The notes below the pieces were generated by a model. The model ran no database searches. It was not told the DNA's origin and saw only the letters and a list, made by a program, of their open reading frames with translations. DNA of 21,941 bases, taken from the IMG/VR virus record IMGVR_UViG_3300037847_001192, positions 1 to 21,941 of that record. One strand, given 5' to 3'. Positions 12,820-13,343 of the stretch are shown piece after piece. Each line of letters begins with the position of its first letter. Positions within the stretch are counted from its first letter, which is position 1. A program made the position numbers and the translations under genes. The stretch is from a virus.

Positions 12820-13343
12820 CTACCTGCGACGGCGAGCTTTACGCATTTCCTCCTCTTGATCCTCGTTCAAAATTTTAAAATACGCGCTCCAACCCAATAG
12901 CTCTTCTGCTGTCATCGTTGACCGTAGCTTCGACAAGCTCATGCCAAGTTCTTTGGCAACGCCAAACTGCAGCATGAGCCAATTGTCTTTCCGAAGCTCG
13001 GCTCCTAAGATTTTGGGTCGATTGCCTCTTCTTCGTCGTCAGTCAAAATAGCCAGCATCAAAGCCTGTAAATCCTTGTCCTTGACTTCGTTTTTAAGAAC
13101 ATCAATCTCACCAGCAATGAACAATGCTTCTCCAAACTCGTCCTGAGCTTTACTGATCAACAACTGCAGCGCAAACGCATTGGCATCATCTGATCCAGCG
13201 CGTTTTTGGGCACGCTCACGCTCTGCCATCGTCAGTGGCGTCACCCACATCTCAAATTTAGTTTCGTCTGAAAGCGTAACTACTTTCTTTGTTGCTTCTA
13301 AGTTTGCAGCTTTTTTAAGACGATCAATGGCGCGTGATGCCAT
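12820..13343 (-). CDS. Tail assembly chaperone GT fusion, made by -1 frameshift (174 aa)
   Basis: If ribosomes slip back one base at CCCAAAA (13017-13011), translation passes the G stop codon and continues in the -1 frame for 63 more residues to the TAG at 12822-12820. The product has 111 residues of G and the tail ILGAELRKDNWLMLQFGVAK ... TAEELLGWSAYFKILNEDQE EEMRKARRRR. This T part has no usable start of its own with a good context, yet it contains a coherent, conserved-looking tail chaperone domain ending in an Arg/Lys cluster. In lambda, gpG and gpGT bind the tape measure protein and recruit the tube protein; both are absent from the finished tail. Position directly before the tape measure gene fits fully. 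Coordinates span both frames; the joining point is base 13011, which is read twice. Confidence 0.85.
12976..13017 (-). promoter_or_regulatory. Programmed -1 ribosomal frameshift signal
   Basis: In the G frame the mRNA reads GAC CCA AAA TCT TAG. The heptamer C CCA AAA (13017-13011) has the X XXY YYZ form, so both tRNAs can re-pair in the -1 frame. A 6-base spacer, which holds the G stop codon, leads to a 7-bp stem: GAGCCGA (13004-12998) pairs with TTGGCTC (12982-12976), including one G-U pair, around a 15-base loop. Heptamer, spacer length and downstream structure are those of known recoding sites in tail chaperone genes. The usual lambda heptamer is GGGAAAG, so the sequence differs while the layout is the same. 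Confidence 0.85.
13005..13343 (-). CDS. Tail assembly chaperone G-like (112 aa)
   Basis: The 112-residue protein begins MASRAIDRLKKAANLEATKK and contains EMWVTPLTMAERERAQKRAG, a typical segment of short tail chaperones, and ends in an acidic tail (TDDEEEAIDPKS). It is the 0-frame product of the G/GT pair; the longer form arises by the frameshift at 13017-13011. Lambda gpG has 140 residues and a similar place between the tube and tape measure genes. A terminator separates it from the tube gene, so its level should be well below that of the tube protein. No strong ribosome site is visible before the ATG. Confidence 0.85.
   Translation of the reverse strand: MASRAIDRLKKAANLEATKKVVTLSDETKFEMWVTPLTMAERERAQKRAGSDDANAFALQLLISKAQDEFGEALFIAGEIDVLKNEVKDKDLQALMLAILTDDEEEAIDPKS

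Follow-up and report, generated by a model that had tools for sequence, protein, structure and literature searches.

Xu, Hendrix and Duda reportedly described the G/GT frameshift of phage lambda in 2004. According to PMC5009743, −1 frameshifting of the lambda G/GT tail assembly chaperones is standard. The same source terms the tail chaperone of HSTV-2 'very likely +1' and gives mixed direction for Ig-domain extensions, and +1 frameshifts are found in Listeria phage PSA and in the tail tube gene of SPP1. A literature search, which covered few subscription papers and for which '+1' was unusable as a search word, listed no paper that deals with CCCAAAA in tail chaperones or with a change of frameshift direction within the family described below.

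The DNA analyzed here (the window) is the whole stretch of 21,941 nucleotides of the marine phage record IMGVR_UViG_3300037847_001192. It very probably carries a lambda-type G/GT pair with a −1 slip at C CCA AAA, and the relatives of this pair appear to use other sites and also the other direction, which would have changed more than once. The G/GT −1 frameshift of the window is ordinary in kind, being a well-known trick. The switch between backward and forward shifting across the family is strong as a sequence pattern, and its mechanism is putative. A nucleotide search of the window against phages gave no match.

The anatomy of the locus can be read directly from the ORFs and their phrog matches. 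On the minus strand, the gene for the major tail protein (14166-13426; phrog_1407, E 8e-5) is followed by G (13343-13005; phrog_20784, E 4e-35), a tail assembly chaperone gene with a normal termination product of 112 aa, then by T and by the tape measure gene (12805-10433; phrog_1538, E 2.8e-15). The G/T pair is placed between the major tail protein and tape measure genes, as in lambda-type G/GT. Inspection by eye showed, between the major tail protein gene and G, a GC-rich inverted repeat with a run of T's after it (gacccctggcattgtcgggggtcttttt; 13406-13376, minus strand), which resembles an intrinsic terminator or attenuator. No ATG is found close to the beginning of the tape measure frame (12805-12793, minus strand); the first candidates are TTG 12805, which lies 14 nt beyond the T stop, and GTG 12793.

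The end of G reads GA C CCA AAA TCT TAG. CCCAAAA (13017-13011, minus strand) has the phasing X XXY YYZ (counted from the G ATG at 13343, phase 2) and its AAA is the second codon before the G stop, just as the first-pass annotation had placed it. G has another, out-of-phase CCCAAAA at 13210-13204. The open −1 frame extends from 13038 to 12823, or 72 codons, and stops at TAG 12822-12820; past the heptamer it comprises 63 codons (13011-12823), and the predicted G–T fusion (13343-12820, minus strand) has a computed length of 174 residues, both lengths being those given earlier. As a 63-codon open run arises by chance in about 4.5% of Markov sequences, this openness by itself is weak evidence. The idea that T has no start of its own holds for its N-terminal part: the earliest ATG, GTG or TTG of the frame is at 12975, 12 codons in and within the conserved core. 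A Shine-Dalgarno-like AAGAGG, read from the sequence 7 nt upstream of the heptamer (13030-13025, minus strand), is a possible enhancer.

That slippage takes place, how efficient it is and what G and T do are inferred from this arrangement. Most ribosomes would stop at the G stop (13007-13005), and a minority would slip back one base at C CCA AAA, the re-pairing being CCA to CCC for tRNA-Pro and AAA to AAA for tRNA-Lys. The slipped ribosomes would read on through T as far as 12822-12820, producing the fusion. By analogy with lambda, G would coat the tape measure protein, and the T part would recruit the major tail protein. Relatives would reach the same function by a −1 slip at CCCAAAG/C, AAAAAAC, AAAAAAA, A_AAG or C_CCC_AAG, or by a +1 slip at AAA AGN, at which tRNA-Lys would move from AAA to the overlapping AAA. 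Direction would be switched via 2-nt indels at or beside the site and by recombination carrying the signal together with T.

Conservation of the site was seen at the nucleotide level. In the first IMG/VR scan (best 80 of 597 confirmed relatives), T is in the same −1 frame in 79 relatives, and the heptamer is CCCAAAA in 75 and CCCAAAG in three. Of the other two, L079 has T CCA AAA AAC, in which the heptamer is A AAA AAC and lies one codon further on, and L039 lacks a heptamer and has T in the +1 frame. The G stop varies among TAG, TAA and TGA in these best 80 of 597 while the −1 frame remains open, and downstream of the heptamer this frame is conserved as protein without an early start. The T frame is thus more than chance because of the conservation of both the frame (79/80) and the heptamer (78/80). 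Among 95 unique sequences of the window's clade, GAC at the site is invariant, AAA is nearly so, and proline is always encoded by CCA, compared with 31% of proline codons elsewhere in G. From codon −7 to +1 the excess codon conservation is 0.35, versus 0.10 upstream and far from the site. The near-invariant GAC CCA AAA, together with the fold of G (see below), supports the original assignment to the G/GT type of −1 frameshift.

The first-pass annotation had also included in the signal a 7-bp stem set off by a 6-base spacer (13004-12976, minus strand). The stem can form: GAGCCGA (13004-12998) can pair with UUGGCUC (12982-12976) through 7 bp including one G–U, with a spacer of 6 nt. Its energy in the window is −11.9 kcal/mol (z −1.36), and 21 of 200 shuffles fold equally well. 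The stem is missing from the minimum-energy fold of the 80-nt stretch, its seven pairs are all formed in only two of 98 unique relatives, and the consensus fold of the window's clade is empty at that place. A conserved downstream stem is rejected for this clade by the latter two results, and a role of the stem in the signal is not supported. The consensus fold revealed no conserved stimulator in the clade. The upstream AAGAGG form is present in 37 of the 98 unique relatives, and its GAG codon is nearly invariant.

G is a tail assembly chaperone, as indicated by its modeled structure. The AlphaFold2 model, built from a 28-sequence alignment (pLDDT 79.7), has the HK97 tail assembly chaperone 2OB9 as its best PDB match (Foldseek E 1.4e-3, probability 1.00; in VIA, Z 8.3 over 102 residues, rmsd 4.4, 13% sequence identity) and YqbN (3KLU) as the second (Z 7.4). 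Both Foldseek and VIA therefore place G in the tail assembly chaperone fold. At the sequence level, one relative (L213) has a match to phrog_344, a tail assembly chaperone family, in its G part (4e-7), and Pfam gives a weak Phage_TAC_13 match in three of 12 G sequences (best E 0.0023). The G profile had no match among the sequences of solved structures, and G had no sequence match to lambda G.

By sequence, T matches phage tail families. The window T matches phrog_26456 (E 1.2e-7) and the tail protein families phrog_337 (E 2.9e-5) and phrog_14766 (E 1.1e-3). In a set of 23 diverse T's, phrog_26456 (unknown function) and phrog_14766 were found in all 23 and phrog_337 in 21. The T family profile aligns with residues 3-41 of lambda gpT in hhalign (E 6e-4), a weak match with a probability of only 28.8%. 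The T model is all helical, with four helices and pLDDT 93.2. Comparison of T with solved structures, by sequence and by fold, gave just low-complexity or chance matches, and Pfam and NCBIfam gave chance-like matches only, with no Pfam tail family.

The pair is also present in named records: cyanosiphovirus KBS-S-2A (62% identity), S-H1, MED4-184, MED4-117, S-2L and AG-345-A17. As predicted in the first-pass annotation, gene callers miss T: it is unannotated in KBS-S-2A, MED4-184, MED4-117 and S-2L, and S-H1 has a separate short ORF annotated at T. AG-345-A17, a deposited single-cell record, carries no annotation. The annotation can thus be corrected, T being missing in four of the five annotated named phages examined. 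The sites are A AAA AAC in KBS-S-2A and S-H1, C CCA AAG in S-2L and only A AAG in MED4-184 and MED4-117; in AG-345-A17, T is in the +1 frame at TTG AAA AGC TAA. In a word search of the KBS2A paper (PMC3751600) and the freshwater cyanosiphovirus paper (PMC6157547), the word 'frameshift' was absent.

The family was collected with eight viral scans and one genome scan, to which the named records were added; this yielded 571 loci including the window. Some contigs occur twice and, with at most the best 80 loci per scan, the counts represent a sample rather than a census. The genome scan gave one relative, L572, in a contig binned as an uncultured gammaproteobacterium. With a truncated locus (L341) left out, the matches listed comprise 570 loci with both G and T: 438 with T at −1, 131 with T at +1 and a single one with T in the G frame. 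The last (L421:44-553) has an indel inside G that breaks the frame upstream of an intact CCCAAAA, so that T falls in the G frame; this may be a sequencing error or a mutation.

Among the matches listed, every one of the 438 −1 loci has a −1 site: CCCAAAA in 146, AAAAAAC in 101, A_AAG in 82, AAAAAAA in 40, CCCAAAG in 35, C_CCC_AAG in 16, CCCAAAC in nine, CCCAAAA plus AAAAAAC in eight and CCCAAAA plus AAAAAAT in one. The +1 loci listed have AAA AGC (124), AAA AGT (5) or AAA AGG (2). The first-pass annotation had held that loss of the heptamer in close relatives would speak against the signal. Such loss occurs, but always with a replacement site, which is A AAA AAC, A AAG, A AAA AAA or C CCC AAG at −1, or AAA AGN with T at +1. 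The 16 −1 loci with GAC CCC AAG AAC (L420, L422, L430, L432, L572 and others) have no double-slip heptamer, and therefore only P-site C_CCC could slip there.

The two classes of junction are sharply separated. Among the 451 unique junctions listed, an in-phase AAA AGN within 12 codons of the G stop is present in 102/102 +1 junctions and in 0/349 −1 junctions, against a background of 131 in-phase AAAAG in 44,254 codons within G. CCCAAA or AAAAAA in the same range is found in none of the 102 and in 267 of the 349, being absent in 82. In the relatives with T at +1, the P-site tRNA is able to re-pair one base forward (AAA A, 102/102 listed). In 91 of these 102 junctions the T-frame stop directly abuts the pivot AAA on its upstream side, and the shift must therefore fall between AAA and the G stop; in this stretch, the only good re-pairing would be that of the Lys tRNA from AAA to the overlapping AAA, one base forward. 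Slippage by −2 at the +1 loci is ruled out by pairing, as the Lys anticodon would face UGA/UAA or CCA. The +1 pivot is always AAA, though within the G genes of these clades AAA accounts for 42-72% of the codons for Lys, and in the AG-345 clade AGC follows the pivot in 64 of 69, though AGC is 13% of Ser codons. To our knowledge, there is no experiment on +1 slippage at AAA AGC.

Further features accompany the forward site in two clades. In the AG-345-A17 clade (L083, L088-L167), codons −7 to −3 before the AAA pivot are GAAGAGGCTAAAGCC (GAA GAG GCT AAA GCC). This element (GAAGAGGCUAAAGCC), 6 nt upstream of the pivot, is free of synonymous variation across 68 unique sequences, a lower level than anywhere else in the gene, in a region where the T frame is closed. 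It contains a hairpin of three pairs, GGC(UAAA)GCC, plus an SD-like GAGG, and it has the appearance of an element that serves the +1 shift at the RNA level. The L039 clade has a 7-bp stem (UGCAGAG/CUCUGCA) that begins eight bases after the first base of the pivot; since this stretch is coding in both frames, conservation of the stem does not count as independent evidence.

The history of direction was traced on trees of 71 representatives, which stand for 396 of the 409 rows that preceded the last scans, the genome scan being one of these; 13 rows with a short G or T, S-2L among them, were dropped. The fewest direction changes on these trees are four for G+T, five for G and seven for T. The approximately unbiased (AU) tests used careful trees of 46 of the 71 representatives, from the window and KBS groups. 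These require three changes for G+T, and none of 200 bootstrap trees needs only one. A single direction change is rejected for G+T (AU p 0.00019) and for G alone (p 0.0026). For T alone, a single change is not rejected at the 5% level among these 46 (p 0.069), and therefore some of the changes on the G tree may represent T exchange.

Close pairs of opposite direction suggest how the change may take place. When the pairs L408 (+1)/L378 (−1), L409/L382, L399/L364 and L213/L440 are aligned, a gap of 2 nt falls at the shift site or next to it, as in ATGAAAAGC versus ACAAAAA, the exact place of the gap in such a run being ambiguous; further gaps occur in the flanks and toward the T end. L408 and L378 are 92-100% identical in the DNA further upstream and 61-73% in the G–T block, which argues that the block was exchanged as a whole. 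L412 (+1; its contig is also that of L188) and L414 (−1) share 1292 nt of DNA at 95.9% identity, ending 30 nt before the L412 G stop. Past this boundary the shift sites and T's differ, and resemblance resumes at L412:2179; the G proteins are 97% identical and the T proteins 52%. The signal and T moved together in this case, as judged from the alignment. A recombination boundary at L412:1291 is seen against both L414 and L413, with the shift signal, T and the following sequence replaced and the direction switched.

These pairs bear on whether direction is ever converted in place. It is possible, though rather unlikely, that all the direction changes are only T-cassette exchange between −1 and +1 lineages. 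L412/L414 fits this, as does the T tree, which tolerates one change; however, L399 (+1) and L082 (−1) have T's that are 79% identical and G's that are 70% identical, and several pairs align across G and T with the 2-nt gap at or beside the site. A broader account, which we consider to have slightly better than an even chance, is that in this cyanophage-like family direction is an evolvable and exchangeable module. The Lys AAA would be the pivot at most −1 and all +1 sites, a 2-nt indel would turn −1 (CCC AAA or A AAA AAN) into +1 (AAA AGN) and back, and the signal would travel with T by recombination; in one +1 clade, a new upstream element (GAAGAGGCUAAAGCC) would drive the forward slip.

Other explanations concern the frameshift itself. 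T could be a separate short gene translated via coupling or internal re-initiation, with no fusion made. The T frame does have internal ATG/TTG codons at 12975, 12942 and 12936, S-H1 carries its annotated ORF, and BFVD has T-like entries of 52-87 aa that stand alone, possibly as artefacts of annotation. This explanation is nevertheless very unlikely: among the 451 unique junctions listed, the first T-frame start is more than 10 codons in at 401 (within 10 codons at 21, none at 29), conservation sits on the slippery codons, and the type of site separates perfectly with T direction. RNA polymerase slippage during transcription would explain both directions and, in PMC3711429, direction is described as conserved among orthologs using ribosomal frameshifting and mixed direction as a sign of transcriptional slippage. 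A runs of six to eight in the A AAA AAC/A AAA AAA sub-clade would suit such a process. Polymerase slippage needs a run of about 7-9; only four A's are present in the window, four to five at the +1 sites and three in A_AAG, and in-phase placement of the site is expected for ribosomal, not transcriptional, slippage, which makes this process highly improbable. It is barely credible that the +1 loci are −1 loci altered by errors in sequencing or assembly. Indels are possible in metagenome contigs, and L421 has one inside G, but the 102 unique +1 junctions listed come from many independent samples, each with AAA AGN and without a −1 heptamer, and +1 occurs also in the single-cell record AG-345-A17. 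Ribosomal slippage, backward or forward, is preferred to each of these explanations.

In this family a single orthologous gene pair shows both shift directions, mostly on A runs seemingly too short for transcriptional slippage. The close −1/+1 pairs (L408/L378 and L412/L414) would constitute a natural experiment on what the ribosome needs for backward versus forward slippage, and on how the signal for a shift can switch sides while function is kept.

In comparison with lambda G/GT, the window has the same order of major tail protein, G, T and tape measure genes, an in-phase heptamer near the end of G and a T that would be reached only by a −1 shift, and the T profile of its family aligns, if weakly, with the gpT N-terminus. 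It differs in the heptamer (GGGAAAG in lambda and CCCAAAA in the window), in the length of T (144 residues in lambda and 63 in the window) and in G, which shows no sequence match. The predicted G fold is like that of the HK97 chaperone in spite of the low sequence identity. In KBS-S-2A (HQ634187), the counterparts are CPKG_00058 and the gap before CPKG_00059, in the same −1 register as in the window; the site and the lack of an annotated T are the differences. PSA and SPP1, and very likely HSTV-2, resemble the +1 loci of the family in that a phage tail gene is extended by a forward shift. However, PSA and SPP1 shift on proline codons and extend structural proteins, whereas the putative +1 pivot of the family is Lys AAA followed by AGN, in a chaperone that has close relatives using −1.
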